The notes below the pieces were generated by a model that was not told the origin of the DNA, did not search any database, and saw only the letters and a program-made list of their open reading frames with translations. This document shows, one piece after another, positions 1 through 13,755 of a stretch of DNA of 64,000 bases. The DNA comes from Planosporangium flavigriseum (GTDB lineage: Bacteria > Actinomycetota > Actinomycetes > Mycobacteriales > Micromonosporaceae), in the NCBI RefSeq assembly GCF_011947225.1, contig NZ_JAATVW010000009.1, forward strand, positions 124,001-188,000, read 5' to 3'. The stretch's first letter is position 1. The number at the start of each line of letters is the position of its first letter. The translations under genes and the position numbers were made by a program.

Positions 1-1
1 A

Positions 2-196
2 CAGCACCGGGGCGCCCCGCAGGACATCGAGTGGGCGGTCGCCGAGTCCGGCGACGTCCACGTCCTGCAGGTACGGCCGGAGACGGTCTGGAGCCAGCGC
101 AAGCCCGAGGCGCCAATCCTGGAGAAGAAGTCGGCCGTCGACCACGTCCTGATGCGCTTCTCCGGCGGCAAGCTCGCCACGAAGGCGGGATCGTGA
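2..196 (+). CDS. PEP-synthase-like ATP-grasp (PPDK N-terminal) domain protein, C-terminal end only
   Basis: Only the last 64 codons are in the window. The frame reads DIEWAVAESGDVHVLQVRPETV, the signature that closes the pyruvate/PEP-binding ATP-grasp domain of phosphoenolpyruvate synthase and pyruvate phosphate dikinase. In complete enzymes a linker, a mobile phosphohistidine domain and a PEP-binding barrel follow. Here the protein stops about 40 residues after RPETV, so the ATP-grasp domain is a separate polypeptide, as in split enzymes such as phenylphosphate synthase. The stop lies 10 bases before the next gene, so it looks like part of the pyridine operon. Its substrate is unknown; phosphorylation of an aromatic intermediate is only a guess. 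The upstream part would show whether a partner subunit exists. Confidence 0.75.
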   Translation, partial: QHRGAPQDIEWAVAESGDVHVLQVRPETVWSQRKPEAPILEKKSAVDHVLMRFSGGKLATKAGS

Positions 197-206
197 AGGC
201 TGCGTC

Positions 207-1082
207 GTGAAGGCCGCTTACTTCTCCTACCACCGGCCGGCGTCCGTCGAGGAGGCCGTGACCTACCTCGACGAGTACGGCGGCGGCGCCCGGGTGATCG
301 CGGGCGGCCAGAGCCTCGTGCCGATGATGAACATGCGGCTCTGGCGCCCGCTCGCCCTGGTCGACATCAACGGCATCGACGAGCTCACGCACATCCGGGC
401 CGACGGCAGCGCCACCGCGCTCGGCGCGCTGGTGCGCTACTCGACGATCGAGCGGGACCCGGTCGTCGCCGAGCGGCTGCCGGTACTGGCCCACATCGTC
501 CGGTACATCGGCGACCGGCAGGTCCGCAACCGCGGCACCATCGGCGGCAGCCTGGTGCAGGCCGACCCCACCGGGGAGATGCCGCTGGCGTGCCTCGTGC
601 TCGGGGCCATGGTACGGGTGGTCGGGCCGGAGGGCGTACGGGAGATCCCGCTGTCGGAGCTGTACGAGGGCTCCTACGCCGCCGCCCTGGAGCCCGAGGA
701 GCTGCTGACCGAGATCGTCTTCCCGGCCTCGCCGCAGCACTTCGCGTTCACCGAGGTCACCCGCAGGCACAACGACTTCGCCGTGGTCAGCGTCCTCGCC
801 ACCGGGAACCGGGGCGCCGACGGGCGCTGGCGCGACGTGCGGATCGGGCTCGGCGGCGTCGCCGATACGCCGGTGCTCGCATCAGCCGCCGGTGCGGCGC
901 TGGCGGGCACCGACCTGGCCGACGACGCCATCCGCGCCGCCGCGGAGTTGGCCGTCGACGTCATCGACCCGCCGTCGGACATCCGGGCCTCGGCGGAGTA
1001 CCGCCGCCACCTCGTTCCCGTACACGTTCGCCGGGTGCTCACGCAGCTGCGTGACGCCCCGCTGCAAGGAGAAACTGCATGA
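207..1082 (+). CDS. FAD-binding subunit of a molybdenum hydroxylase (CoxM/NdhF type)
   Basis: This 291-residue protein has the two FAD-binding signatures of the medium subunit of xanthine dehydrogenase-family enzymes: AGGQSLVPMMNMR near residue 33 and TIGGSLVQADPTGEMP near residue 112. The C-terminal part matches the CO dehydrogenase flavoprotein C-terminal domain. In the complex FAD receives electrons from the 2Fe-2S subunit and passes them to the acceptor. The partners are encoded at 5056-5532 and 5615-8005, so the subunits are split by five other genes, all on the same strand. The GTG start is chosen because the family N-terminus (KAAYFSYHRPASVEEA) begins there; the ribosome site is weak. 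The stop overlaps the next start (ATGA). Confidence 0.93.
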   Translation: MKAAYFSYHRPASVEEAVTYLDEYGGGARVIAGGQSLVPMMNMRLWRPLALVDINGIDELTHIRADGSATALGALVRYSTIERDPVVAERLPVLAHIVRYIGDRQVRNRGTIGGSLVQADPTGEMPLACLVLGAMVRVVGPEGVREIPLSELYEGSYAAALEPEELLTEIVFPASPQHFAFTEVTRRHNDFAVVSVLATGNRGADGRWRDVRIGLGGVADTPVLASAAGAALAGTDLADDAIRAAAELAVDVIDPPSDIRASAEYRRHLVPVHVRRVLTQLRDAPLQGETA

Positions 1083-1756
1083 AGCTTCGCGAGGAGTTCC
1101 AGGTCGCCAAGCCGGTCGGCGACGTGTGGAGCTTTTTCGAGCAGCCCGAGCGGGTCGCGGCGTGCCTGCCCGGCGTCGAGAACGTGACGGTGGTCGACCC
1201 CGACAACGTCAACGTGCGGGCCACCCAGAGCCTCGGCCCGATGAAGGCCACGTTCGACGCCAAGATCAAGATCAATGAGCGGGTACCCGGTGAACTGATC
1301 GCCTTCACCGCGACCGGCCGCACCGTGAAGGGCGCGCTCGGCAACGTGCGCGCCGGGGTCAGCGTCCAGCTTGCCCCGGTCAACGGCAGCGCCACCGGGG
1401 TCGTCGTCGAGGGCGACGTCGTCCTCGCCGGCGCGCTCGGCAGCGTCGGGCAGAAGGTCGTCTCGAAGCAGGCCGGCAAGGTGACCGCTGAGTTCGCCCG
1501 CAACCTGGACATCATGCTCAACGGCGGCCGGCTCGACGACGTGGCGGCGAAGGACGCAGCGGCGAAACCGCGGCAGCGCGCCGCCGTGGTGACGGAGCCG
1601 ATCCCGGCGGCCGTGCCGTCAGTGGCGCCGCAGCCGGTCGCGCAGTACGTGCCGGCGCCGGCCGACCCATGGTCGCGCGCCGCCGCCGCGCTGAGCCTCG
1701 TCTCGGCGCTGGTCAGCATCGCCGTCCTGATCGTCGTCCTGGGAGGTGCCCGGTGA
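1079..1756 (+). CDS. CoxG-like SRPBCC protein with C-terminal membrane anchor
   Basis: This 225-residue protein begins with the CoxG (carbon monoxide dehydrogenase subunit G) fold: a START/SRPBCC domain with LREEFQVAKPVGDVWSFF and the PERVAACLPGVE motif over about residues 1-150. A Pro/Ala-rich linker follows (about 150-195). A hydrophobic segment near residues 200-222 should tether it to the membrane. In CO dehydrogenase systems CoxG recruits the soluble enzyme to the membrane and links it to the respiratory quinone pool. By analogy it would connect the nicotinate hydroxylase encoded here to the respiratory chain; this is inference. It is translationally coupled on both sides, starting in an ATGA overlap and ending in a GTGA overlap. 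Confidence 0.9.
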   Translation: MKLREEFQVAKPVGDVWSFFEQPERVAACLPGVENVTVVDPDNVNVRATQSLGPMKATFDAKIKINERVPGELIAFTATGRTVKGALGNVRAGVSVQLAPVNGSATGVVVEGDVVLAGALGSVGQKVVSKQAGKVTAEFARNLDIMLNGGRLDDVAAKDAAAKPRQRAAVVTEPIPAAVPSVAPQPVAQYVPAPADPWSRAAAALSLVSALVSIAVLIVVLGGAR

Positions 1757-2370
1757 GCGGGATCGTGCTGCCGGTCGCGCCCGAGGTGGCGCTCGACACC
1801 GACCTGGAGCGGGCCGCCGCGGCGTGGATCCGCCCGTACGACCAGGCCTGGCACCTGATGCGGGCGCGGGACTGGCTGGTGCACATCGCGCCGGACGCGA
1901 GCCTGGAGATGCGGCTCGCGGCGATGGTCCACGACATCGAGCGGATGTTCCCCGGCAGCCCCAAGATGAACATGGCCACGCAAGCCTGGGACGACCCGTA
2001 CTACCTGTTCGCCCACTCGCTGCGCTCGGCCGAGTCCGTCAGCGTCTGGCTCACCGGGCAAGGCGAGGCCGCCGCCGGCGTCGACGAGTACGAGGTCCGC
2101 CGGCTCGTCGCGCTGCACGAGCTCGGCGGCCTGCGCGGCGCCGATGAGGTACAGGCCGGCGACTCACTGTCCTTTTTGGAGACGCTCGCCGAGCTGACCC
2201 GGAACTGGGTGCGCAGCGGCGTGTGCAGCAAGACGAAGGGCGCCGAGAAGCTGCAGTACATGGCCGACCGGATCCGGATCCCGGCTGCCATGAAGCCGGC
2301 CGCCGAGCTCCTGGAGGCGGCCTTGGAAGGGCTCGACCAGATTAAAGAAGAGGAAGTGACTCGCTCATGA
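1753..2370 (+). CDS. HD-domain protein of the pyridine operon
   Basis: This 205-residue protein has the metal-binding HD signature AAMVHDIERMF near residue 57, with further His residues (LVHIAP, FAHSLRS, LHELGG) that fit an HD phosphohydrolase-like helical bundle. The start is the GTG overlapping the stop of the CoxG-like gene. GGGAGG lies about seven bases upstream, and the protein ends in an ATGA overlap with the maleate isomerase gene. Tight coupling on both sides implies a function in the pathway. HD proteins are usually phosphohydrolases or metal-dependent hydrolases or oxygenases. No step of the known nicotinate pathway needs this fold, so the role is open. Confidence 0.85.
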   Translation: MSGIVLPVAPEVALDTDLERAAAAWIRPYDQAWHLMRARDWLVHIAPDASLEMRLAAMVHDIERMFPGSPKMNMATQAWDDPYYLFAHSLRSAESVSVWLTGQGEAAAGVDEYEVRRLVALHELGGLRGADEVQAGDSLSFLETLAELTRNWVRSGVCSKTKGAEKLQYMADRIRIPAAMKPAAELLEAALEGLDQIKEEEVTRS

Positions 2371-3143
2371 CCACTGGCGCCCCCTACCGGGTCGGGCTCA
2401 TCGTCCCCAGCTCCAACACGACGATGGAGACCGAGATCCCCGAGCTGCTGCGCCGCCACGGCGAGCAGTACCGCACGTCGTTCACCTTCCACAGCAGCCG
2501 AGCGCGACTGCACACCGTGGACGCCGAGTCCCTGGCGAAGATGGTCGCCGACAGCGACCGGTGCGCCGACGAGCTGGGCGACGCTGAGGTCGACGTCGTC
2601 GGGTACGCCTGCCTGGTCGCCGTGATGGCGCAGGGCAACGGCGCGCACGTCGGGATCGAGGAGCGGCTGCAGTCGGTCCTGACGGCCAGCCGGTCGGCCA
2701 ACGCCCCGATGACCAGCAGCGCCGGCGCGCTCGTCCGCACCCTGAACGCGCTCGGCCTGCGCCGGGTCGCCGTGGTCGCGCCGTACATGCCGGCCCTGAC
2801 CGAGCTCGTGGTCGGTTACATCGAGGACGGCGGAGTCAGCGTCGCCGACAGCGTGAGCCTGTCGGTGTCCGACAACTGCGCGGTGGGCCGCCTCGACCCG
2901 ACCGGCCTGCCCGAGCACGTCAAGCGGCTCGACACCAGCGGCGTGGACGGCATCGTGCTGTCGGCCTGCGTACAGATGCCGTCGCTGCCGGCGGTGCAGC
3001 GGGTCGAGGACGCCCTCGGCCTGCCGGTCGTCACCGCCGCGACCGCGACCACCCGGGAGATCCTGCTCGCGCTCGGCCTGGAGCCGGTGGTCCGGGACGC
3101 GGGCGCGGCCCTGTCGGCCACAGTTCCCGCGGTGGCCTCATGA
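2367..3143 (+). CDS. nicE: Maleate cis-trans isomerase (Asp/Glu racemase superfamily)
   Basis: This 258-residue protein has the hallmarks of maleate isomerase: the N-terminal VGLIVPSSNTTMETEIP, a first catalytic cysteine at residue 82 in VGYACLVAVMAQG, and a second at residue 201 in LSACVQMPSLPAV. The enzyme turns maleate into fumarate, the last step of nicotinate degradation before the TCA cycle. Length and motifs fit the family. It overlaps the HD gene by ATGA and the hydrolase gene downstream by ATGA. The related arylmalonate decarboxylases are less likely because both isomerase cysteines are present and the neighbours belong to the maleamate pathway. Confidence 0.9.
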   Translation: MTTGAPYRVGLIVPSSNTTMETEIPELLRRHGEQYRTSFTFHSSRARLHTVDAESLAKMVADSDRCADELGDAEVDVVGYACLVAVMAQGNGAHVGIEERLQSVLTASRSANAPMTSSAGALVRTLNALGLRRVAVVAPYMPALTELVVGYIEDGGVSVADSVSLSVSDNCAVGRLDPTGLPEHVKRLDTSGVDGIVLSACVQMPSLPAVQRVEDALGLPVVTAATATTREILLALGLEPVVRDAGAALSATVPAVAS

Positions 3144-3964
3144 CCGTCGAGACCACCGGGCGCAGCGTCCAGGTCGAGGCCAACGGTCTGCGCCACCACG
3201 TCCTGCAGTACGGCGCGGAGGGGCAGCCGGACCTGCTGATCCTGCCGGGCATCACCAGCCCCGCCGTGACCGCGGACTTCTTCGCCACGCTGCTGGCGGA
3301 CCTGGGCTACCGGGTCCACGTGCCCGACATCCGCGGGCGGGGGCGAAGCGACCGGGCCGCTGCGGGCCAGTACCGGTTGACCGACTACGCCGCCGACGTC
3401 GCCGGCCTGGTCACCGAGCTCGGCCTGCGGCGCCCGGTCATCCTCGGGCACTCGATGGGCGCCCGGATCGCGATCGCCTACGCCGTCCTGCACGCGCCCA
3501 AGGACCACGGTCTGCTGATCCTGGTCGACCCGCCGGTCTGCGGCCCCGGCCGGGGCACGTACCCGACCACCCGCGAAGCGTTCCTCGCCCAGCTGCACGA
3601 GGCCTACCGCGGCACCACCGCCGAGGAGGTCCGCCGCTTCTACCCGAAGTGGCCCGAGCGTGAGCTGCGCCTGCGCGCCGAGGTGCTCGCCACCTGCGAC
3701 GAGACCGCGATCCTGGAGACGCACGCCGGCTTCGAGTCCGAGGACATCTTCGGGTACTGGCGCATTCTCACCCAGCCGGCGGTGCTCCTGCGGGGCGGCG
3801 ACAGTCCCGTGGTACCCGCCGCGGCAGCCGACGACCTGGCTGCTGCGAACCCGGGCGTCGAGATCGTGACGGTTCCCGACGCCGGTCACATGGTGCCGTG
3901 GGACAACCTGCCCGGCTTCCTCGACGCCGTACGCCCCTATCTGTCATCAGCCGTCACCCGTTAG
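3140..3964 (+). CDS. nicD: Alpha/beta hydrolase, probable N-formylmaleamate deformylase
   Basis: This 274-residue alpha/beta hydrolase has the nucleophile elbow GHSMG (Ser105), a likely acid Asp130 in LILVDPP and the catalytic histidine at 250 in DAGHMVPWDN. These positions sit where the Ser-Asp-His triad lies in Pseudomonas NicD. The oxyanion region is LPGITSPA near residue 35. NicD removes formate from N-formylmaleamate, the product of NicX, to give maleamate. The gene lies immediately before the NicX-like dioxygenase and just after the maleate isomerase, which supports the assignment. The start overlaps the previous stop (ATGA). Confidence 0.88.
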   Translation: MTVETTGRSVQVEANGLRHHVLQYGAEGQPDLLILPGITSPAVTADFFATLLADLGYRVHVPDIRGRGRSDRAAAGQYRLTDYAADVAGLVTELGLRRPVILGHSMGARIAIAYAVLHAPKDHGLLILVDPPVCGPGRGTYPTTREAFLAQLHEAYRGTTAEEVRRFYPKWPERELRLRAEVLATCDETAILETHAGFESEDIFGYWRILTQPAVLLRGGDSPVVPAAAADDLAAANPGVEIVTVPDAGHMVPWDNLPGFLDAVRPYLSSAVTR

Positions 3965-3987
3965 TCGTCTGGCTTAAGGAGGCCACA

Positions 3988-5025
3988 GTGGACCAGAGCA
4001 TCCTCAACGACATGTGCCGGCGCCAACTCGAGTTGAGCGGCGTGCACGAAGGCGAGACCGTGGTCGTGTTGTCCCAGGGCAACGAGCGCATGGACTACGC
4101 CGACGCGTTCCTGTTCGGAGCGCGCAGCCTCGGCGCGAAGACCTACCACATGCGGCTGCAGGAGCCGCGCCCCTCGTCGGGCGCCTGGGCGGTCGGCGTC
4201 TCCGAGCTCGCGGGCAACACCGAGGCGGTCGAGGCGCTCAAGAAGGCCGACATGGTCGTCGACCTGATCTTCCTGCTGTTCAGCGACGAGCAGTTCGCGG
4301 TGCAGGCCGCCGGTACCCGCATCCTGACCGCCGTCGAGCCGGCCCCGCTGCTGGCCAAGCTCTTCCCGACCAAGGAGCTGCGGGAGCGGGTCGAGTTCGG
4401 CGCCGACCTGCTGGCCAAGGCGAAATCGATGCGGATCACCAGCCCGCACGGCACCGACGTCACGTACTCCCTCGGCGTGTACCCGACGATGAGCGAGTAC
4501 GGCTACACCGACCAGCCCGGCCGTTGGGACCACTGGCCGGCCGCGTTCGTGTTCACCGGCGGCGCCGACGACGGCGTGGACGGCCAGATCGTCCTCGCCC
4601 CCGGCGACGTGCTGCTGCCGTTCAACACGTACGTGCAGACCCCGGTGACCCTGACCATCGAGAAGGGCTTCATCACCGACATCCGGGGCGAGCTCGACGC
4701 CGACCTGCTCACGTCGTACATCCAGTCGTTCAACGACCCGCGCGGGTACGGCATGTCGCACGTCGGCTGGGGCCTGGACGAGCGTGCCCAGTGGCACGGC
4801 CTTACCCAGTTCCCCGGCGGTATGGGCATGGAGCTGCGGTCCTTCTTCGGCAACGTCATGTTCTCCATCGGCCCCAACAACGAACTGGGCGGCCCCAACA
4901 ACACCCCGTGCCACTTCGACATCCCGATGCGTGGCTGCAGCCTCTTCCTCGACGACGAGCCCGTCGTCGTGGACGGCGACGTCGTCATCAAGGAGATGTG
5001 GCCGACGGCGCGCCGCAAGGGCTGA
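3988..5025 (+). CDS. nicX: 2,5-dihydroxypyridine 5,6-dioxygenase
   Basis: This 345-residue protein matches the leucyl-aminopeptidase-like fold of NicX, which opens the ring of 2,5-dihydroxypyridine with oxygen to give N-formylmaleamate. The probable iron ligands are visible: His258 in GMSHVGWG, and His309 and Asp311 in PCHFDIPM. Their spacing corresponds to His265, His318 and Asp320 of the Pseudomonas enzyme. The start is the GTG preceded by AAGGAGG five bases upstream, which excludes the longer open frame. It is separated by 23 bases from the deformylase gene and by 30 from the 2Fe-2S subunit gene. It is the most diagnostic gene of the cluster. Confidence 0.93.
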   Translation: MDQSILNDMCRRQLELSGVHEGETVVVLSQGNERMDYADAFLFGARSLGAKTYHMRLQEPRPSSGAWAVGVSELAGNTEAVEALKKADMVVDLIFLLFSDEQFAVQAAGTRILTAVEPAPLLAKLFPTKELRERVEFGADLLAKAKSMRITSPHGTDVTYSLGVYPTMSEYGYTDQPGRWDHWPAAFVFTGGADDGVDGQIVLAPGDVLLPFNTYVQTPVTLTIEKGFITDIRGELDADLLTSYIQSFNDPRGYGMSHVGWGLDERAQWHGLTQFPGGMGMELRSFFGNVMFSIGPNNELGGPNNTPCHFDIPMRGCSLFLDDEPVVVDGDVVIKEMWPTARRKG

Positions 5026-5055
5026 GCCTGTTTCGTACGAACTGGAGGGATTGCG

Positions 5056-5532
5056 ATGGCGGACGAGGTCGCTGTCACGGTCACGATCAACGGCGAGACC
5101 GTGACCGACCGGGTACCGGCCCGGATGCACGCCGCGGACTTCCTGCGGCACCGGCTGGGGCTCACCGGCACCCATGTCGGCTGCGAACAGGGCGTGTGCG
5201 GCATGTGCACCGTGCTCGTCAACGGTGAGGCGGTGAAGTCGTGCCTGATGTTCGCCGCGCAGCTGGACGGCTGCGCGGTGGAGACCGTCGAGTCCCTCGC
5301 AACGGGTGACCAGCTCAATCCGTTGCAGCAGGCGTTCAAGGACGAGCACGGCCTGCAGTGCGGGTTCTGTACGCCGGGCTTCCTGATGACCGCCACCGCG
5401 TTGGCGCGGCGCGGACAGCGGCTCTGCGCCGCGGAGATCCGCGAGGAGATCGCCGGCGTGCTGTGCCGCTGCACCGGTTACGACGGCATCGTCAAGGCGA
5501 TCGCCCGACATTTGGACGAGACCGCGGTGTGA
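5056..5532 (+). CDS. 2Fe-2S subunit of the molybdenum hydroxylase
   Basis: This 158-residue protein has the two-domain architecture of the small subunit of xanthine dehydrogenase-family enzymes. An N-terminal plant-ferredoxin-type cluster uses Cys43, Cys48, Cys51 and Cys63 (GCEQGVCGMC then C). A C-terminal four-helix domain holds the second cluster at Cys102, Cys105, Cys137 and Cys139 (CGFC and CRC). It relays electrons from the molybdenum site to FAD. GGAGGG lies about seven bases before the ATG. The large subunit follows 82 bases later. Together with 207-1082 and 5615-8005 it completes a three-subunit hydroxylase. Confidence 0.95.
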   Translation: MADEVAVTVTINGETVTDRVPARMHAADFLRHRLGLTGTHVGCEQGVCGMCTVLVNGEAVKSCLMFAAQLDGCAVETVESLATGDQLNPLQQAFKDEHGLQCGFCTPGFLMTATALARRGQRLCAAEIREEIAGVLCRCTGYDGIVKAIARHLDETAV

Positions 5533-5614
5533 CGCTGGGGCGGTGCGCCGACACCGCCCCAGCGAGTCCTGGTCGTGCACAGCATGTCGCGCACAGCATT
5601 GAGATGAGGAACGG

Positions 5615-8005
5615 GTGACGGAGACACTGGAGCGCAGGCCCACCGTGGGCGAGGAGCGCGGCGGGCAGGAGCGGACCTCGTTGATCGGTACGAGCGCCGC
5701 GCGCAAGGAGGACGACCGGCTGCTGCGCGGCGACGGCCGGTTCACCGACGACGTGGACCCGTTGCACGTCCTGGAGATGGCGGTCGGGCGGTCCCCGTAC
5801 CCGCACGCCCGGATCGTCAGCATCGACGTCAGCGCGGCCCTGGAGTTCGAGGGCGTGCGCCAGATCCTGGTCGGCGCCGACGTCCGGCGGATGTCGGCGC
5901 CGCTGACCGTGCTCCGGCCGGTGCCCGGCGCGCCGAAGCTGCCGTACTACGCGCTCGCGCAGGACGTGGTGCGCTACGAGGGCGAGCCGGTCGTCAGCGT
6001 CGTCGCGACCAGCCGGGCCATCGCCGAGGACGCGCTGGAACTCATCGACATCGAGTACGAGCCGATCCCGCACGTCTCCGACGTCATCGACGCGCAGGAC
6101 CCGGAAGCTCCCCAGATCCACCCCGACCTCGTCGAGGGCAACCTCATGGTGGTCAACCCGGAGGGCACCGGGGACCCCGAGGCGCGCATCCGCTCCGCCG
6201 ACGTGGTCGTCTCCGGCCGCTTCCGCATCAACCGGGTCACCGGCCTGCCGATGGAGACCCGGGCCATCGTCGCCGAGTGGCGGCCGGGCGCGCGGGAGCT
6301 CACCGTGCACAGCTCGACCCAGGTGCCGCACCTGGTACGTAAGCAGCTCGCCGAGGTGCTCGGCCTGGCCGAGAGCGACATCCGCGCCGTCGCCTCCGAC
6401 CTCGGCGGCGCGTACGGTCTCAAGCTTGGCATCTACCCCGAAGACGTCCTCGCCTGCCTGCACGCCATGGCGCTGCGGCGGCCGGTGAAGTGGGTCGAGG
6501 ACCGCATGGAGTTCTTCCGGGCCACCACGCACGCCCGCGAGGCGACCCACGACTACCGGATCGCGGCCCGCTCGGACGGGCGGATCGTCGCGATCACCAA
6601 CACGTACGCCACCGACATGGGTGGCTGGAACTCCGGCTTCGGCTCCGCGCAGCTGTCCAGCGTGGTCTTCACCGGCCCGTACAAGGTCTCCGACGGCTAC
6701 GTCGAGCGGCGCGTCGTGCTCACCAACAAGACACCGATCGGCGCGTACCGCGGGTACGGCCAGCCCGAGGTCAACTTCGCCTGCGAGCGGCTGATCGACC
6801 AGCTTGCCCGCAAGCTCGGCCTCGACCCCCTGGACGTGCGCGCCGCGAACATGCTCCGGCCGGAGGATCTGCCGTGGCGCAACCCGGCCGGCGCCGTCTA
6901 CGACAGCGGGGACTACGAGCGCTGCCTGCGGATGGCGGCGGAGGCCATCGGGTACGACGCGCACCGCGCCGCCGGCCGTGGCCCCCGCGCCGACGGCCGC
7001 TATGTCGGCATCGGGCTGTCGTCGTTCGTCGAGCGCACCGGCTACGCCAGCGCCCGCTTCCTGGCCAACCGCGGCTCCCAGTACGGCGCGCACGAGAGCG
7101 TCACGCTGCGCGCCAACCGGTCCGGCGGCATCGACCTGTACACCGGGGTCTCGACCATGGGCCAGAGCAGCGAGACCGCCTTCGCCCAGATCGTGGCCGA
7201 CGTCTTCGGCTGTGACTACGACGCGGTGAAGGTCCACGCTGGCGACACCGCCGCCTCGCCGCTCAACACCGGGGCGTTCGCATCGCGGACGCTGATCGCC
7301 GCGTCCGGCGCGCTCAAGGAGGCGAGCGAGAAGCTGCGGGACAAGACCTTGCGGCTCGCCGCGTACTGCCTGGAGGCTCCTGCTGAGGACGTGGAGATCG
7401 CCGGGGCCGTGGTGCGGCGCCGTGACACCGGTGCTTCGGTCACCTTGGCCGAGGTCTTCTCCCGGGCGATCACCGGTCAGGGCATCCCGCCGGAGGAGGA
7501 GCCCGGCCTGGAGTCCACGTCGCACTTCGAGCCGACCGACGCGGCCTACTCGTTCGGCACCGCCGCGGCGCTGGTCTCGGTCGACCCGGAGACCGGCGAC
7601 TTCGACGTCGAGCGCTTCGTCATGGTGCACGACTGCGGGGTCGCGGTGAACCCGAAGATCGTCGAGGGCCAGGTACGGGGCGCGCTGGTGCAGGGACTCG
7701 GCGCCGCGCTCGGCGAGGAGCTCCGCTACGACGCCGAGACCGGCCAGCTCGTCAACGGGACGATGATGGACTACTTCGCCCCGGCCGCCCCGGACGTCCC
7801 GCCGATCGAACTGCTGCACACCGAGGTGCCGTCACCCGTGACGACGTTCGGCGTACGCGGGGTCGGCGAGGTGGGCACGATCCCGCCGGCCGCCGCGATC
7901 GCCAACGGCATCTGCGATGCCCTCGCCGACTTCGGCGTGGAGCTTCACACGATGCCGCTGACCCCGGAGGTCGTCTGGCGGGCGCTGCAGGAGGCTAGCC
8001 GCTGA
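5615..8005 (+). CDS. Molybdopterin-binding large subunit of a molybdenum hydroxylase, probable nicotinate dehydrogenase
   Basis: At 796 residues this is the full length of CoxL/NdhL-type large subunits. Visible motifs are the N-terminal LIGTSAARKEDDRLLRGDGRF, GAYRGYGQPE near residue 375 and the C-terminal GVRGVGEVGTIPP carrying the active-site glutamate. The CO dehydrogenase signature (a Cys in VAYRCSF) is absent, so CO is not the substrate. Next to NicX, NicD and maleate isomerase the likely reaction is hydroxylation of nicotinate to 6-hydroxynicotinate. Another N-heterocycle feeding into 2,5-dihydroxypyridine is possible. GTG start with GAGG about nine bases upstream. The end lies only four bases from the convergent glycosyltransferase gene. 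Confidence 0.9.
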   Translation: MTETLERRPTVGEERGGQERTSLIGTSAARKEDDRLLRGDGRFTDDVDPLHVLEMAVGRSPYPHARIVSIDVSAALEFEGVRQILVGADVRRMSAPLTVLRPVPGAPKLPYYALAQDVVRYEGEPVVSVVATSRAIAEDALELIDIEYEPIPHVSDVIDAQDPEAPQIHPDLVEGNLMVVNPEGTGDPEARIRSADVVVSGRFRINRVTGLPMETRAIVAEWRPGARELTVHSSTQVPHLVRKQLAEVLGLAESDIRAVASDLGGAYGLKLGIYPEDVLACLHAMALRRPVKWVEDRMEFFRATTHAREATHDYRIAARSDGRIVAITNTYATDMGGWNSGFGSAQLSSVVFTGPYKVSDGYVERRVVLTNKTPIGAYRGYGQPEVNFACERLIDQLARKLGLDPLDVRAANMLRPEDLPWRNPAGAVYDSGDYERCLRMAAEAIGYDAHRAAGRGPRADGRYVGIGLSSFVERTGYASARFLANRGSQYGAHESVTLRANRSGGIDLYTGVSTMGQSSETAFAQIVADVFGCDYDAVKVHAGDTAASPLNTGAFASRTLIAASGALKEASEKLRDKTLRLAAYCLEAPAEDVEIAGAVVRRRDTGASVTLAEVFSRAITGQGIPPEEEPGLESTSHFEPTDAAYSFGTAAALVSVDPETGDFDVERFVMVHDCGVAVNPKIVEGQVRGALVQGLGAALGEELRYDAETGQLVNGTMMDYFAPAAPDVPPIELLHTEVPSPVTTFGVRGVGEVGTIPPAAAIANGICDALADFGVELHTMPLTPEVVWRALQEASR

Positions 8006-8009
8006 CCGG

Positions 8010-8903
8010 TCAGAACGAGTTGCGCAGTGCCGACGGGCGTACCAGCGCGACGGTCGCCCGCCTGCTGCGCGGGTGGCCGAGCACGGCCCGTGACACCTCC
8101 CGCGCCAGGACGATGAGCCAATACAGCGCGGTGACGGCGCTGGAGTGGCGCTGCCGGTACAGCTTGACGCGGTTGACCGCCAGCAGAGCCCACAGCCGCG
8201 GCGACACCTTCGACTCGCCTTCCAGGTGGGTGGCCCGCGCCTGCGGGGTGAGCCGGGTCAGGAAGCCGCGGTCGCGGGCTCGCAGGGCGAACTCGGTCTC
8301 CTCGGAGTACAGGAAGAACGACTCGTCCCAGGGGCCGCAGGCGTCCAGGCAGGGGGTCGACACGAGCATGACGGCGCCGGTGGCCCAGTCCGCGGTGGTC
8401 GGCCGCTCGTAGGCCGCCTCGTCCAGCACGGTCTCGCCGAGGCGTGGATGCCGGCCGGCGCGCCGGCCCAGGGCCGCTTCGCCGAGCGCGCGGAGCAGGG
8501 TCGGCTCCCGCCGCAGCGACCAGGCCAGGCTGCCGTCGCCCAGGTACAGCCGCGGCACGGCGATGCCCACGCCGTCGCGCAGGCTCGCGTACAGGGCTTC
8601 CACGCAGCCCGGTTCGAGCCGGATGTCGGGGTTGAGGATCAGCGCGGCGTCGTACGGGTCAGCGGCGGCGAGACCGGCGTTGATGGCGGCCGCGTACCCG
8701 GCGTTCCGGCCGGTTTGCACAATCGTGCAACCGATGGCGGACCGTTCGGCGATCGCGACCGTGTCGTCGGCCGAGGCGTTGTCGGCGACGATCACCTGCC
8801 GGTCGAGGCGGCCCAGCCCGGCGTCGAGGGACGCGAGCAGGCCCGGCAGCACGGCCGCGCTGTTCCAGGTGACGATGACGACGGCGATCCGTGGACTGTT
8901 CAC
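8010..8903 (-). CDS. GT2 family glycosyltransferase, rhamnosyltransferase-like
   Basis: This 297-residue GT-A enzyme has the N-terminal nucleotide-binding strand IAVVIVTWNSAAVLPGLL, an acidic LILNPDIRLEPG motif near residue 91, and WATGAVMLVSTPCLDACGPWDESFFLYSEETEF typical of WbbL/RfbN-type rhamnosyltransferases. It would add a sugar to the lipid-linked exopolysaccharide repeat on the cytoplasmic face. It starts with GTG in a four-base GTGA overlap with the stop of the upstream GT2 gene, so the two are one transcript. Donor and acceptor cannot be read from the sequence. Confidence 0.88.
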   Translation of the reverse strand: MNSPRIAVVIVTWNSAAVLPGLLASLDAGLGRLDRQVIVADNASADDTVAIAERSAIGCTIVQTGRNAGYAAAINAGLAAADPYDAALILNPDIRLEPGCVEALYASLRDGVGIAVPRLYLGDGSLAWSLRREPTLLRALGEAALGRRAGRHPRLGETVLDEAAYERPTTADWATGAVMLVSTPCLDACGPWDESFFLYSEETEFALRARDRGFLTRLTPQARATHLEGESKVSPRLWALLAVNRVKLYRQRHSSAVTALYWLIVLAREVSRAVLGHPRSRRATVALVRPSALRNSF

Positions 8904-9766
8904 CGGCTCTCCTTCGTGGCGACCGCCCGGCTGCTGTCGTCGCGCAGCCAGGTCGTGTAGTCCCGCGACCGGATGGGCCGGCGCGCCTTCCAGCGAGCCA
9001 CCGCGGTGACCCCGAGGAAGACGGCCAGGCGGGGCGCCATCGCGGGCTCGGCGCGCAGGATGCGCAGGAGGTCGGCTCGGGTCGTGCGCGCTCCGCCGAT
9101 GCCGTCCATCGTGTTTTCCAACTGCGCGATGCCGGTGAGCGCCCGGACCCGTCGGCGCATCAGGTCGGTGGCCGTACGTGGCGGGTGCACCACCACCCGG
9201 GCCTGCCTGACGATCCGGCGCTCGTGCGGTCCGAACGCCACCGACGCCGCGAGGTCGTCGTTCATCACCTGCGGCAGCGCGGCGAGCCGTCGGTGGCCGG
9301 CCTCGCTCACGCCGATCACCCCGCGGCCGTAGAGCCCGTTCCGCACGCCGGGGAGCCGCTGCCAGATGTCGTAGTACCAGCGCACAGTGAGCGGCCGACT
9401 ATCCATTGTGAGCACTCGCGCCGGTGCCGCCGCCAGAACGCCGGGCTCGCCGGGCTCGCCGAGCGCGTCGGCGAGCGCGCGCACGTCCCGTGTTCGCAAC
9501 TCAACGTCAGCGTCCACGTACAGGCGCGGGAAACCTCGTGCGTGTTGATCACCTAACTGAAGGGCATTGGATTTCGCCGCAATCGCGGTTGAAACCACCA
9601 AAACCCGCCCCCCGAAGGACGCAGCTATCTCGGCTGTCTCATCCGAACAGCCATTCGCTACGACAACTACGTGTAATTCGTCGGAGCGGGCATCGGCCAA
9701 AAGCCCGGTCAGCAGTCGACCAATGACCGAGGCTTCATTGTGGGCGGGAATTACGACGCTAATCAC
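8900..9766 (-). CDS. GT2 family glycosyltransferase
   Basis: The GT-A domain starts with ISVVIPAHNEASVIGRLL, and an acidic LYVDADVEL motif follows near residue 82. The open frame continues upstream to a GTG at 9880. Those extra 38 codons are AT-rich, unlike the rest, and lie over a palindromic promoter-like stretch. The GTG at 9766 directly before ISVVIPAH is therefore preferred (288 residues). No strong ribosome site precedes either start, so the choice is tentative. It is first in a two-gene unit divergent from the initiating transferase at 10159. Confidence 0.82.
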   Translation of the reverse strand: MISVVIPAHNEASVIGRLLTGLLADARSDELHVVVVANGCSDETAEIAASFGGRVLVVSTAIAAKSNALQLGDQHARGFPRLYVDADVELRTRDVRALADALGEPGEPGVLAAAPARVLTMDSRPLTVRWYYDIWQRLPGVRNGLYGRGVIGVSEAGHRRLAALPQVMNDDLAASVAFGPHERRIVRQARVVVHPPRTATDLMRRRVRALTGIAQLENTMDGIGGARTTRADLLRILRAEPAMAPRLAVFLGVTAVARWKARRPIRSRDYTTWLRDDSSRAVATKESR

Positions 9767-10158
9767 GGACCAAGTATCGAGCCGGGGGTGGATATGTCCA
9801 CTGGGGTTTACCGAATCTTTTGGGGCGAGCGGAAGAATTCGGACTAATTCGCGCGTGAAATTGTCCAATCGGCTTGACACGGAGAGTCAACAAACGCCCT
9901 GCGCTGAGTAGAGATCAAGTTACGAGCACGCCGCTGACCTGATAATATTTGTGGTATTCGATTGGCGTCTCGGGGTGGCCGTTTTCCTGACCCTGCTGAC
10001 TGTCCGGTCGAAAGTTCGACACTCACCTAGGCGCTGCGCACACTCCGCCGGTAGCTTCCGTTTCAGTCTTGGTGCGGATGCACGTTTGGCGGCATGCATC
10101 GTTTACGGGGACTCGTTCGTTCGCATTCGGTCTGTTAGGGGAGGCAGATCCGTGATGA
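9767..10158. promoter_or_regulatory. Divergent intergenic region of the exopolysaccharide locus, left end
   Basis: This region separates the leftward GT2 pair from the rightward glycosylphosphotransferase operon and is clearly more AT-rich than its surroundings, especially about 9830-9960. It holds an inverted repeat TTGAC-N7-GTCAA at 9874-9890, which also reads as a -35-like TTGACA on the + strand, and an AT-rich GATAATATT at about 9950. A strong GGGGAGG ribosome site at 10138-10144 precedes a seven-codon mini-frame at 10152-10175. Promoter positions were not resolved. Confidence 0.4.
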
Positions 10159-10175
10159 GTGCTGGTGAAAACTGA
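10152..10175 (+). other. Seven-codon upstream mini-frame overlapping the glycosylphosphotransferase start
   Basis: GTG ATG AGT GCT GGT GAA AAC TGA begins seven bases after a strong GGGGAGG and ends inside the first codons of the next gene in a different frame. It could be a leader that couples translation of the initiating transferase, or chance. No peptide function is claimed. Confidence 0.3.
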
Positions 10176-11646
10176 CGTGGTCGTCCTCGAAGCGGTGACC
10201 GGCGCGACCGACGCCAATGTGACGGCCGGCAGTCGCAGGCCACGCATAGGAGATCGTGGCCGGTTCAATTTGGTCATTGTCGACATTCTGGCCGCCTCCA
10301 TGGCGGCGATCGTGATCTATGCGGTGCGGCAGGAAGGCATCGCGATCGCCCGAAACTCGTCGATCATCCGCAACGTGCTGACCGTCGCGATGCCGCTGGT
10401 GTGGGTGGTCGCGCTGGCCCTGCACCGGGCGTACGACCGGTGGTCGGTCCACAGCGTGGCGAAGATGTGGCGCCTGGTCGTCCAGGCCGCCCTCACGCTG
10501 ATCGGAGCAATGTCCGCGGTCTGCCTCGCGCTGCGCTACACCACCCTGCTGGACCTCATTCTCGTCGGGATTCCGCTCATGGCGGCGCTGACCGTCCTGA
10601 TGCGACTGGCGGCCGCTTGGTGGCTGCGCCGCCGCGACGCCGACACCTATCTGCGGCGGACTCTGGTCGTCGGTCACGCCGCGCAGCTCGACGGACTGCT
10701 GGCGACGTTGAGCCGAGGCCGTGACCACAATGTGCGAGTCGTGGCGGCGTGCGTCGCTGACCGGGCAGGCGAACACCAGGCCGTGGCGCTGACCGTGCCG
10801 GTCCTCGGAGACCTCAACGGGATCTGCTCCACCGCCCTCGCCGCCGGCTGCGACTGCGTGATCGTCGCGCCCTGTCCCGAGCTGGATGCCCCGCGGCTGC
10901 GCCAGATCGGCTGGGCACTCCACGACGCCGGTGTCGAACTGCTCGTCGCCCCGGCGCTGTCGGACGTGGCCAAAGAGCGAATCGCGGTCCGTCCCGCGGG
11001 TGAGCTGCCGCTGTTGCACGTGCGTGCACCCGTGTTCAACGGTCCCCAACGTGTCTTGAAAGGACTGTTGGACCGGGTTGGAGCTTTCGCACTCCTCCTG
11101 TGCCTGTGGCCGGCGATGCTCGTGATCGCGGTACTCATCCGGGCCACCAGCAACGGTGCGGCGCTTTTCCGGCAGCGGCGGGTCGGGCGGGACGGCAGGG
11201 AGTTCACCCTTTACAAGTTCCGCACGATGAGCGTGGACGCGGAGACCCGCCTCGGCGGACTCCTTTCTCGCAACGAGCGAGCCGACGGCCTGCTGTTCAA
11301 GATGCGCGCCGACCCGCGGATCACGCGGGTCGGGAGATTCCTGCGCAAGTACTCGCTGGACGAGCTGCCCCAGCTCATCAACGTCCTGACCGGGGACATG
11401 TCGTTGGTCGGGCCGCGCCCGCCGCTCCCGCACGAAGTGGCCCGCTACGACGACACGGTGTGGCGGCGGATGCGGGTCAAGCCGGGGCTCACCGGGCTGT
11501 GGCAGGTCAGCGGCAGATCCGAGCTGTCCTGGGCCGACTCGGTGCGCCTCGACCTCAGCTATGTCGACAACTGGTCCCCGGCGTTGGACGCCCGGATCCT
11601 GCTGCGCACCGTCAGCGCCGTCCTCAAGGGGACCGGGGCGTACTGA
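10159..11646 (+). CDS. Polyprenyl glycosylphosphotransferase initiating exopolysaccharide synthesis (WcaJ/CpsE type)
   Basis: This 495-residue protein has four to five N-terminal membrane segments (about residues 35-155), a nucleotide-binding-like soluble loop, a membrane segment near 305, and the C-terminal bacterial sugar transferase domain. That domain shows RRVGRDGREFTLYKFRTM, YSLDELPQLINVL, MSLVGPRPP and KPGLTGLWQVSGR. It transfers a sugar-1-phosphate to undecaprenyl phosphate, the first step of repeat-unit assembly. The start is uncertain: GTG at 10159 or 10165. The best ribosome site (10138-10144) is spaced for a short frame starting at 10152, not for this gene. It heads a + strand operon. 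Confidence 0.92.
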   Translation: MLVKTDVVVLEAVTGATDANVTAGSRRPRIGDRGRFNLVIVDILAASMAAIVIYAVRQEGIAIARNSSIIRNVLTVAMPLVWVVALALHRAYDRWSVHSVAKMWRLVVQAALTLIGAMSAVCLALRYTTLLDLILVGIPLMAALTVLMRLAAAWWLRRRDADTYLRRTLVVGHAAQLDGLLATLSRGRDHNVRVVAACVADRAGEHQAVALTVPVLGDLNGICSTALAAGCDCVIVAPCPELDAPRLRQIGWALHDAGVELLVAPALSDVAKERIAVRPAGELPLLHVRAPVFNGPQRVLKGLLDRVGAFALLLCLWPAMLVIAVLIRATSNGAALFRQRRVGRDGREFTLYKFRTMSVDAETRLGGLLSRNERADGLLFKMRADPRITRVGRFLRKYSLDELPQLINVLTGDMSLVGPRPPLPHEVARYDDTVWRRMRVKPGLTGLWQVSGRSELSWADSVRLDLSYVDNWSPALDARILLRTVSAVLKGTGAY

Positions 11647-11648
11647 GC

Positions 11649-11698
11649 CGTAGTCAGAACAGTCGTAGTCAGAACAGTCGTAGTCAGAACAGTCGTAG
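11649..11698. repeat. 15-bp tandem repeat, 3.3 copies
   Basis: The unit CGTAGTCAGAACAGT occurs three times without change at 11649-11693 and then breaks off. It lies between the stop of the glycosylphosphotransferase gene and the ribosome site of the next gene. Confidence 0.95.
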
Positions 11699-11725
11699 CC
11701 AAACCACGATCCGAAACGAGGAGCT

Positions 11726-12790
11726 GTGACGTATTCGCTCGCCGGCGATCAGCCCGACCCGATCGGGGTCGCTGTCATCGGGGCCGGTTACTGGGGGCCC
11801 AACCTGGTGCGCAATTTCCAGGCCACGCCGTCGTTCCGGGTCCGCTGGTTGTGCGACCTCGACCTGGACCGTGCCCGCAGGGTTCTCGGGGGGTACTCGA
11901 CGATCACCGCCACCGACGACTACTCCGCGATCCTGGACGACGACGAGGTGCAGGCGGTCGCGATCGCGACCCCGGCCGGTACCCATCTGGACGTCGCCAT
12001 GGCGGCGCTGCGGGCCGGCAAGCACGTCCTCGTCGAGAAGCCCCTCGCGGCGACGTTCGACGACGGCCGGCGCCTGGTGGAGGAGGCGGACCGGCGCGGG
12101 CTGGTGCTCATGTGCGACCACACGTACTGCTACACCCCCGCGGTCGCCCGGATCCGGGAGATCGTGCGCTCCGGCGAGCTGGGGGAGCTGCACTACGTCG
12201 ACTCCGTACGCATCAACCTCGGCCTGGTGCAGCGCGACATCGACGTGATGTGGGACCTGGCGCCGCACGACCTATCCATTCTGGACTTCGTGCTGCCCGA
12301 CGACGTGACGGCGGTGGCGGTCGCGGCGCACGGCGCGGACCCGATCGGCGCCGGCCGCTCCTGCGTGGCCTACCTGACCATCGAGCTCAGCACCGGCGCG
12401 ATCGCGCACATCCACGTCAACTGGCTATCGCCGACGAAGGTGCGCACCACCATGGTCGGCGGCTCCAAGCGCACCCTCGTCTGGGACGACCTCAACCCCA
12501 CCCAGCGCGTCTCGATCTTCGACCGCGGGGTGGACCTGACCATGCCCGAGGAGTTGGGCGACGACGAGCGGCGGGAAGCGCTCATCTCGTACCGGTCGGG
12601 CGACATGGTCGCGCCGGCGCTGGGGGAGCGGGAGGCGCTGCGCGCGATGGTCGACGAGTACGCCAGCGCGATCCGCGGTCGCCGGGCGCCGCTGACCGAC
12701 GGCCGGTCCGGCCTGCGGGTCCTCGGCATGCTCGAGGCCGCCTCGCGCAGCCTCGCCAACCGTGGCGAGATCGTGGAGGTGGCGCGGTGA
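11726..12790 (+). CDS. Gfo/Idh/MocA-family sugar-nucleotide oxidoreductase (WbpB-like)
   Basis: This 354-residue protein starts with the NAD-binding motif VAVIGAGYWGPNLVRNF. It carries the AGKHVLVEKPLA motif near residue 100, whose Lys is catalytic in the family, and the HDLSILDF motif near residue 180. In diacetamido-uronic acid pathways WbpB oxidises C3 of UDP-GlcNAcA before an aminotransferase and an N-acetyltransferase act. Exactly those activities follow here (13752, 14885, 15565). The GTG start has GAGGAG about five bases upstream. The end overlaps the epimerase start (GTGA). Confidence 0.88.
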   Translation: MTYSLAGDQPDPIGVAVIGAGYWGPNLVRNFQATPSFRVRWLCDLDLDRARRVLGGYSTITATDDYSAILDDDEVQAVAIATPAGTHLDVAMAALRAGKHVLVEKPLAATFDDGRRLVEEADRRGLVLMCDHTYCYTPAVARIREIVRSGELGELHYVDSVRINLGLVQRDIDVMWDLAPHDLSILDFVLPDDVTAVAVAAHGADPIGAGRSCVAYLTIELSTGAIAHIHVNWLSPTKVRTTMVGGSKRTLVWDDLNPTQRVSIFDRGVDLTMPEELGDDERREALISYRSGDMVAPALGEREALRAMVDEYASAIRGRRAPLTDGRSGLRVLGMLEAASRSLANRGEIVEVAR

Positions 12791-13755
12791 TCCGGGGCAA
12801 GCGCGCGCTGGTGACCGGCGGAGCCGGCACCATCGGCTCCCACGTCGTGGACCAGCTGGTGCGGCACGGCGCCGCCGAAGTTGTGGTGCTGGACAACTTC
12901 GTTCGGGGCCGGCGGGCGAACCTCGCCTGGGCTCATGCGCACGGCAACGTGCGGGTCGTCGACGGCGACATCTGCGACGTGGCGACCGTACGCGAGGTGA
13001 CCGCAGGTGCCGACCTGGTGTTCCACCTGGCGGCGCTGCGGATCACGCAGTGCGCCGAACAGCCGAGGCTCGCCAACGAGGTGCTCGTCGACGGCACGTT
13101 CAACGTGTTGGAGGCGGCCGTCGAGGCCGGCGTGCGCAAGGTGGTGGCTTCCTCGTCGGCGTCGGTCTACGGGCTGGCCGAGGAGTTCCCCACGACCGAG
13201 CGGCACCACCCGTACAACAACGACACGTTCTACGGGGCGGCGAAGGCGTTTAACGAGGGCATGCTGCGCAGCTTCCACGCGATGTACGGGCTGGACTACG
13301 TGGCCCTGCGCTACTTCAACGTGTACGGGCCCCGGATGGACGTCCACGGCGTCTACACCGAGGTGCTGATCCGCTGGATGGAGCGCATCGCGTCGGGCAC
13401 GCCGCCGCTGATCCTCGGCGACGGCACCCAGACGATGGACTTCGTGCACGTCGCTGACATCGCACGCGCGAACATCCTGGCGGCCGAGGCCGACGTCACC
13501 GACGAGGTGTTCAATGTCGCCAGCGGTACGGAGACCAGTCTGAACGAACTGGCGGTGGCGCTGCTCGAGGTGATGGGCTCGAGCCTTCGGCCGGAGCACG
13601 GGCCGGCGCGGGCCGTGAACGGCGTCACCCGGCGGCTGGCCGACACCGGCGCCGCGGCGTCGCGACTGGGCTTCAAGACCGAGATCGACCTGCACGAAGG
13701 CCTGCGCGGCCTGGTGGAGTGGTGGCGGTCGGAGAAGCAGGAGGCGACCCGATGA
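12787..13755 (+). CDS. NAD-dependent epimerase/dehydratase (extended SDR)
   Basis: The real gene is 322 residues, beginning at the GTG that overlaps the preceding stop. It has the Rossmann motif VTGGAGTIGSHVVDQL, the catalytic SSSASVYG strand, and the YGAAK Tyr-x-x-x-Lys pair near residue 146. The NVYGPRMDVHG substrate loop follows. It resembles UDP-glucose 4-epimerases and nucleotide-sugar dehydratases. Which one cannot be decided from sequence; it may feed a second amino sugar together with the aminotransferase that follows. The stop overlaps the next ATG. Confidence 0.88.
   Translation: MIRGKRALVTGGAGTIGSHVVDQLVRHGAAEVVVLDNFVRGRRANLAWAHAHGNVRVVDGDICDVATVREVTAGADLVFHLAALRITQCAEQPRLANEVLVDGTFNVLEAAVEAGVRKVVASSSASVYGLAEEFPTTERHHPYNNDTFYGAAKAFNEGMLRSFHAMYGLDYVALRYFNVYGPRMDVHGVYTEVLIRWMERIASGTPPLILGDGTQTMDFVHVADIARANILAAEADVTDEVFNVASGTETSLNELAVALLEVMGSSLRPEHGPARAVNGVTRRLADTGAAASRLGFKTEIDLHEGLRGLVEWWRSEKQEATR

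Follow-up and report, generated by a model that had tools for sequence, protein, structure and literature searches.

The left end of a 64,000-nucleotide stretch of Planosporangium flavigriseum DNA (contig NZ_JAATVW010000009.1, positions 124,001 to 188,000; here called the window) carries eight intact, tightly packed genes on the + strand, from position 207 to position 8005. These genes probably belong to an operon of the HpdA (3hpd) kind for 3-hydroxypyridine, in which the substrate would be phosphorylated, hydroxylated by a molybdenum hydroxylase, dephosphorylated to 2,5-dihydroxypyridine and broken down to fumarate. We hold it to be fairly likely, with slightly less confidence, that a two-component dikinase, the molybdenum hydroxylase with its CoxG-family protein and an HD-domain phosphatase form a phosphorylate-oxidize-dephosphorylate module, the hydroxylase acting on a phosphorylated substrate. 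The cluster itself is a further, ordinary case of a published kind, and the account of its dikinase and HD genes is the new part. Also new is the observation that the HD gene travels with the dikinase and molybdenum hydroxylase genes through several gene orders.

Lower pathway and substrate

The NicF-, NicX-, NicD- and NicE-type proteins all matched solved enzymes (PDB 4l07, 7cn3, 4l0c, and 4fq7, respectively), and the downstream set is complete. In the established pathway, these four enzymes convert 2,5-dihydroxypyridine to fumarate, and enzymes of the molybdenum hydroxylase family hydroxylate the carbon adjoining the ring nitrogen. A full lower pathway together with a single molybdenum hydroxylase implies a substrate one hydroxylation away from 2,5-dihydroxypyridine, which on chemical grounds points to 3-hydroxypyridine. 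Judged from its genes, the operon thus most likely serves the catabolism of 3-hydroxypyridine and not of nicotinate; the lower pathway to fumarate and the class of substrate are well supported. A first-pass annotation of the window had described an operon for pyridine catabolism that ends with the breakdown of 2,5-dihydroxypyridine, which the matches of the NicX, NicD, and NicE types to solved enzymes bear out. It had also named nicotinate as the substrate, and this we do not uphold.

The route from nicotinate to 2,5-dihydroxypyridine requires a second, decarboxylating monooxygenase (NicC) after the molybdenum step. Nine open reading frames from five FAD_binding_3 loci of the same genome, some perhaps off frame, served as queries for a NicC-type FAD monooxygenase and gave no match in the window, in the flank left of the window on the same contig (L002) or in 80 related loci. 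Three NicC-like proteins used as queries likewise gave no match in these three sets of sequences, and a weak match (E 8.6e-5) in one comparison locus (L184). The comparison loci came from a sample of 394 genomes of the class, of which 15 carried NicX at E 1e-60, 12 of these without an HpdA-type molybdenum subunit; eight of the 12 were viewed in context (G056, G224, G308, and G339 were left out). The nine queries matched five of the eight (L177 to L180 and L183), all actinobacterial, in which NicX is accompanied by the FAD monooxygenase, NicE, NicF, NicD, a molybdenum hydroxylase and a CoxG-family gene, and in which neither a dikinase nor an HD match was found. In L178, a Pfam check returned FAD_binding_3 (5e-27) and COXG (1.3e-19). 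For the monooxygenases of two of these five clusters, none of the NCBIfam models listed reached its cutoff, and for this reason we infer the NicC label. Of the remaining loci, L181 and L182 carry NicX, NicF and a more distant molybdenum hydroxylase, and L184 carries NicX, NicE, and NicF. The molybdenum subunits of HpdA-type and monooxygenase-type NicX clusters formed separate clades (100/100 each). A nicotinate hydroxylase was therefore rejected, both for the lack of a NicC-like gene in the window, flank and related loci and for the different clade of the molybdenum subunit.

Dikinase and HD-domain protein

The operon starts about 3.4 kb left of the window, at a NicF-type amidase gene that is followed by a phosphoenolpyruvate (PEP)-utilizing protein; because the amidase and dikinase genes lie upstream in the same direction, it begins outside the window. 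The tight gene order reported in the first-pass annotation holds, although these three upstream genes (the amidase and both dikinase halves) had been missed; its seven gene families were also recovered in intact frames, the HD gene having been left out.

The ATP-grasp (PF01326) and swivel (PF00391) domains of the dikinase are on separate genes. Matches of the 622-residue swivel protein to the PDB were confined to the C-terminal swivel region, residues 511 to 617, and on this ground PEP synthase or a housekeeping pyruvate-phosphate dikinase (PPDK) was rejected for the pair; the full-length relatives, which adjoin phenylphosphate carboxylase, cre-type or carboxylase genes, also speak against these identities. 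Such relatives were found in plasmids, where 10 of 256 records covered at least 80% of the query. The swivel protein was 46.6% identical to a homolog that in Azoarcus KH32C lies next to phenylphosphate carboxylase genes, and 47.6 to 47.8% identical to homologs in two cre-type clusters on Rhodococcus plasmids. Next to the latter are genes for a P450, a ferredoxin, a reductase, an HD protein and an aldehyde dehydrogenase, arranged consistently with the creC to creJ genes tabulated in PMC7764795. The homologs HpeHI, CreHI, and PpsAB are described as phosphorylating phenols. HpeH combines a swivel domain with another domain, whose homolog in rifampin phosphotransferase binds rifampin (PMC12167813). 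The same source calls the reason for starting such catabolism by phosphorylation unclear, and its main text has no word containing "pyridin" or "molybd."

In a tree of 72 swivel rows, the 38 that we had labeled 3hpd fell in one branch (93/99) together with four rows labeled "other," and the cre, ppc, and hpe rows (one of ppc type and one of hpe type) lay outside it. The catalytic-His motif was found in all 38. By these sequence comparisons, the upstream pair is a two-component small-molecule dikinase of the phenylphosphate synthase/CreHI/HpeHI kind. Two further arrangements were seen: in three loci (L047, L048, and L116) the swivel half occurs in two copies within one cluster, and on a plasmid of the haloarchaeon Haladaptatus salinisoli (L044) a dikinase pair has Rieske-type dioxygenase subunits and a metallophosphoesterase gene in its vicinity, possibly another phosphorylate-oxidize-dephosphorylate set.

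Taken alone, the HD protein had no Pfam or NCBIfam match at E 0.001. It was aligned with its family (n = 72; the window, 67 of the 80 related loci, L045 to L047, and L007), of which 41 members matched the HD Pfam family and 58 matched DUF4202 (E up to 0.1). Residues H34, H60, D61, H88, H122, and D137 were invariant in all 72 sequences, and further invariant residues include E63, R64, R91, E123, Q134, S138, and R173. With the AlphaFold model (pLDDT 94.5), the top Foldseek matches were HD hydrolases (3dto, 5dqw YpgQ and small alarmone hydrolases), with a best E of 0.055 and a probability of up to 1.00. Profile comparison by hhalign of the family with an HD protein at the CreD position and two relatives of it gave an E of 5.7e-5 and a probability of 66, and the metal ligands lined up when judged by eye; BLAST against the two HD proteins of a Rhodococcus ruber cre-type cluster gave no match. 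By its conserved ligands and by the probability and rank of the Foldseek matches of its model, the protein is a divergent HD-domain protein, and it may be the phosphatase of the pathway.

The related loci were gathered with the HD alignment (80 of 90 fetched, many cut by contig ends) and came from actinomycetes, Solirubrobacterales, and alpha- and betaproteobacteria. In those flanked by 9 kb or more of sequence on each side (n = 36), the swivel half was present, in part or whole, in 31, the ATP half in 32 and the molybdenum subunit in 31, with none of these in 4; the corresponding numbers for all 80 loci were 54, 55, 44, and 17. The gene order of this operon (NicF, dikinase pair, FAD subunit, CoxG, HD, NicE, NicD) is kept in 21 of the 80, except that in many of them NicE has another place or lies beyond the contig end. 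Paraburkholderia and alphaproteobacterial loci have the core genes in other orders, and their molybdenum subunits, measured in three proteobacterial genomes, were 69 to 72% identical.

Since this sample was anchored on the HD gene, the molybdenum subunit and the dikinase were also used as anchors. Exactly 3 of 394 genomes had an HpdA-type molybdenum subunit (G000, which is the genome of the window, G022, and G054), and strong HD matches in the same draw fell in the same three, with a weak one (E 6e-5) in G053. Among 399 genomes from the order to which Paraburkholderia tagetis belongs, only P. tagetis had a molybdenum subunit match at E 1e-250. The dikinase was found in 23 of 396 genomes of the phylum at E 1e-50. 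Among 18 dikinase-anchored loci from 17 genomes (G431, G493, G511, G512, and G743 were left out of this view), the HD gene was present in both loci with the molybdenum subunit and in 0 of 16 without it, in available DNA; several of the 18 are short, and one of the two (G685) was seen on the wider contig only (L187).

HD-family genes also occur in other settings. In eight loci (L113, L117, L118, L124, L125, L130, L133, and L134) and on the Thermomicrobium roseum megaplasmid (L007), an HD gene accompanies low-similarity dikinase halves and a different molybdenum hydroxylase, and NicX is absent. Ten HD-family genes (L122, L123, L126, L127, L132, L135, L137, L138, L140, and L144), from Thermogemmatispora, Ktedonobacteraceae, and acidobacterial genomes, had no dikinase or molybdenum subunit match in available DNA; these lone genes likely have another role.

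Molybdenum hydroxylase, CoxG and operon layout

The closest solved chain to the molybdenum subunit is that of quinoline 2-oxidoreductase, and together with those of other HpdA-type loci the subunit formed one clade (100/100, 34 rows). In Pseudomonas, the nicotinate hydroxylase NicAB leads into this lower pathway as well, and NicB carries cytochrome c domains. Unlike NicAB, the operon showed no cytochrome c domain: the CXXCH heme motif was absent from all eight proteins, and Pfam at E 0.001 gave only molybdenum hydroxylase domains on the large subunit, in agreement with the earlier claim that a cytochrome partner is lacking. The large subunit of CO dehydrogenase has a copper-binding Cys loop. 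When aligned to CO dehydrogenase chains, the subunit here reads AYRGYGQ at residue 377, and because this differs from the copper-Cys loop, CO dehydrogenase (form I) was rejected. The operon thus resembles aerobic CO dehydrogenase in its molybdenum, FAD and 2Fe-2S subunits and in CoxG, and differs from it in this loop and in the closest solved large subunit. Pseudonocardia kunmingensis has two HD/dikinase/molybdenum hydroxylase clusters (L072 and L100), of which L100 has a more distant molybdenum subunit (927 bits) and a NicX-like gene (199 bits) and may serve the use of a related substrate.

The CoxG-family protein ends in a 19-residue hydrophobic segment (residues 203 to 221, mean hydropathy 2.83), so that a protein of this family with a hydrophobic tail does stand in place of a cytochrome partner, as had been noted at first. 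Of 29 loci with an HpdA-type molybdenum subunit (at least 900 bits, a cut of our own choosing), 28 had a CoxG gene; the sole miss (L092) begins at the 2Fe-2S gene. Tails were judged in 27 of the 28 (L070 is cut by a contig end), with a mean hydropathy of at least 1.6 over 19 residues as the criterion, and a hydrophobic C-terminal stretch was found in 22, with L100 borderline at 1.6; it was absent in L095, L099, L101, L114, and L115. The tail was also missing in L047 and L048. CoxG was also found beside NicX in the five actinobacterial monooxygenase-type clusters, which may be better candidates than this operon for a CoxG-linked nicotinate hydroxylase. As a CoxG homolog has already been proposed as membrane anchor of 3-hydroxypyridine dehydrogenase (PMC11962113), the pairing of CoxG with a molybdenum hydroxylase is not in itself new. 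The CoxG of CO dehydrogenase has been described as a membrane protein that binds menaquinone (PMC13240472, citing Kropp 2025), and in Sulfolobus CoxG-like proteins anchor a dehydrogenase, by which quinone is reduced even without them. Given that CoxG is conserved here and related to the solved CO dehydrogenase CoxG (PDB 8uds), electron delivery to the quinone pool via CoxG is plausible from its sequence; a role at the membrane or with quinone is likely.

Genes 1 to 5 of the eight (207 to 3964) overlap their neighbors by 4 bases, and the GC content at third codon positions is 0.91 to 0.97 in the operon genes of the window (Table 1). Divergent from the operon, an ammonium transporter and a GntR/FCD regulator (L002:10049-12322), kept in many related loci, are likely the nitrogen link and local regulator. 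To the right, 8010 to 14888 holds, on mixed strands, what by eye are sugar-polymer genes (glycosyltransferases, undecaprenyl sugar transferase, epimerase, and aminotransferase), which look unrelated to the operon.

Table 1. Genes of the operon in the window and in its left flank (L002), with the matches (E values) on which each label is based
Feature	Position	Strand	Basis
NicF-type amidase, left flank	L002:12591-13256	same direction as operon	PDB 4l07 1.7e-73
Dikinase substrate-binding/swivel half, PEP-utilizing, 622 residues	L002:13253-15121	same direction as operon	PF00391
Dikinase ATP-grasp gene, whole; mostly off window	L002:15118-16197	same direction as operon	PF01326
ATP-grasp (PPDK_N) half of two-component small-molecule dikinase, CreI/HpeI/PpsB-like, 3' end	1..196	+	PF01326 1.3e-93, whole protein
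Molybdenum hydroxylase FAD subunit (medium)	207..1082	+	PF00941 2.5e-48, PF03450 5.8e-22
CoxG-family SRPBCC protein, 225 aa, C-terminal hydrophobic segment	1079..1756	+	PF06240 2.3e-16; PDB 8uds 3.9e-11
Divergent HD-domain protein, 205 aa; proposed aryl-phosphate phosphohydrolase	1753..2370	+	ligands, fold, profile
Maleate cis-trans isomerase (NicE type)	2367..3143	+	PDB 4fq7 1.3e-67
N-Formylmaleamate deformylase (NicD type)	3140..3964	+	PDB 4l0c (Deformylase) 6.9e-52
2,5-Dihydroxypyridine 5,6-dioxygenase (NicX)	3988..5025	+	PDB 7cn3 3.1e-91
Molybdenum hydroxylase 2Fe-2S subunit (small)	5056..5532	+	PF01799 5.2e-28, PF00111 2.4e-8
Molybdopterin subunit (large), HpdA type; operon's last gene	5615..8005	+	PF02738, PF20256, PF01315; PDB 1t3q 2.7e-152

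Proposed pathway and alternatives

Wang et al. (2020, AEM) reportedly described the 3-hydroxypyridine dehydrogenase HpdA and a four-component cluster in Ensifer adhaerens HP1. The SRPBCC part is said to be a separate subunit, and a PEP-utilizing protein and a pyruvate-phosphate dikinase are said to be involved in the activity, with their role left open; to our knowledge, the HD protein is not discussed there. The operon here likewise has molybdenum, FAD and 2Fe-2S subunits with a separate SRPBCC/CoxG gene, and PEP-utilizing and PPDK-like genes (L002:13253-16197) such as reportedly belong to 3hpd. The dikinase and HD genes, overlooked earlier, fit the published cluster. The 3-hydroxypyridine cluster has been found, in varied gene order, in Actinobacteria, Rubrobacteria, Thermoleophilia, and alpha-, beta-, and gammaproteobacteria (PMC10117386), taxa that overlap those of our related loci. 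In the cre pathway for 4-cresol in Corynebacterium glutamicum, a two-component dikinase (CreHI), an oxidase (CreJEF) and a phosphohydrolase (CreD) are combined (PMC7764795), and the cre relatives in Rhodococcus have an HD protein at the creD position. Unlike the operon here, the cre oxidase is a P450 system and the cre substrate a phenol, and the cre HD proteins have no BLAST-level similarity to the one in the window. Phenylphosphate synthase (PpsAB) and HpeHI share the homologous swivel/substrate and ATP-grasp halves, although their genes are followed by carboxylases.

We propose that the dikinase would use ATP to phosphorylate 3-hydroxypyridine at its hydroxyl, by way of a phosphohistidine. 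The molybdenum hydroxylase would then hydroxylate C6 of the phosphate ester, electrons passing from 2Fe-2S to FAD and on towards quinone, with CoxG as the membrane link or quinone carrier. Removal of the phosphate by the HD protein would free 2,5-dihydroxypyridine, which NicX, NicD, the NicF-type amidase and maleate isomerase would convert to fumarate. The dikinase is placed before the molybdenum enzyme because PEP-type proteins are reportedly involved in HpdA activity; this order, the phosphatase role of the HD protein and the CoxG route are what we infer. The phosphate tag would retain 3-hydroxypyridine inside the cell and make the ring poorer in electrons, an effect that should help nucleophilic hydroxylation. 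Searches of an open-license library, which omits most subscription papers, listed no paper on a phosphorylated hydroxypyridine.

Several points weigh against this proposal. The enzyme activities are proposed from genes and homology, and the likeness to the Ensifer HP1 cluster rests on gene content and taxonomy. The best 15 of 1040 plasmid records were at most 40% identical to the molybdenum subunit, so that no Ensifer 3hpd cluster was met, and no HP1 record was present among the dikinase and molybdenum subunit plasmid matches listed or the HD-related loci. An arginine in a loop of the molybdenum subunit is mostly conserved; the basic residues of this subunit are too weak as evidence of a phosphate pocket. 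The link between the HD protein and CreD is weak by profile (probability 66) and absent by BLAST, and no Foldseek E was below 0.001. The HD loci without any partner in available DNA (17 of 80; 4 of 36 with full context) imply that the family is not confined to the proposed role, and a dikinase/molybdenum hydroxylase cluster of T. roseum (L043) has no HD gene beside it.

The molybdenum hydroxylase might instead use free 3-hydroxypyridine, the dikinase and HD protein serving enzyme maturation, the supply of PEP or AMP, or regulation. The title and, reportedly, the abstract of Wang et al. describe HpdA as the 3-hydroxypyridine dehydrogenase, the phosphorylation step is one that we propose, and HD proteins, as the fold neighbors illustrate, also act on nucleotides and alarmones. 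We nevertheless consider this explanation unlikely, if worth keeping in mind: the dikinase is of the two-component small-molecule kind, matching the PDB only in the swivel region, and the HD and dikinase genes track the molybdenum gene across gene orders. Diiron oxygenases, too, occur among HD proteins with this ligand set, and the H-HD-H-H-D set is common to binuclear HD oxygenases, so that the HD protein could be an oxygenase of the MIOX/PhnZ kind taking part in ring oxidation and not a phosphatase. This is very improbable, as the top 20 fold matches were HD hydrolases or unassigned HD proteins, the best 50 of 322 included no MIOX or PhnZ entry, and the pathway requires no further oxygenase. 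To a nicotinate 6-hydroxylase that feeds CoxG, with 2,5-dihydroxypyridine made by a monooxygenase of NicC type from another part of the genome, we assign an equally slight chance. NicX, NicD, NicE, and NicF are common to nicotinate routes and the genome is rich in FAD_binding_3 proteins (32 matches), yet queries that succeeded in five of the eight comparison loci found no monooxygenase in the window, flank or related loci, the molybdenum subunits of the comparison loci belong to another clade, and the dikinase and HD genes would be left without explanation.

The value of the phosphorylation proposal lies in the jobs that it gives to the dikinase, which would tag the substrate, and to an unannotated HD family, which would untag the product. 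If it is true, this unnamed family gains a name and a test, and the requirement of HpdA for PEP-type proteins would be explained. The module would be a counterpart of the cre pathway in which a molybdenum enzyme replaces the P450, and would extend to other substrates, as in Thermomicrobium-type HD/dikinase/molybdenum hydroxylase clusters without NicX. The idea of a nicotinate hydroxylase coupled to CoxG finds its place to be tested in the five NicX/monooxygenase/CoxG clusters. Phosphorylation of a substrate before its oxidation would, if the phosphorylation proposal is true, be wider than the phenol cases, reaching heterocycles and molybdenum enzymes.

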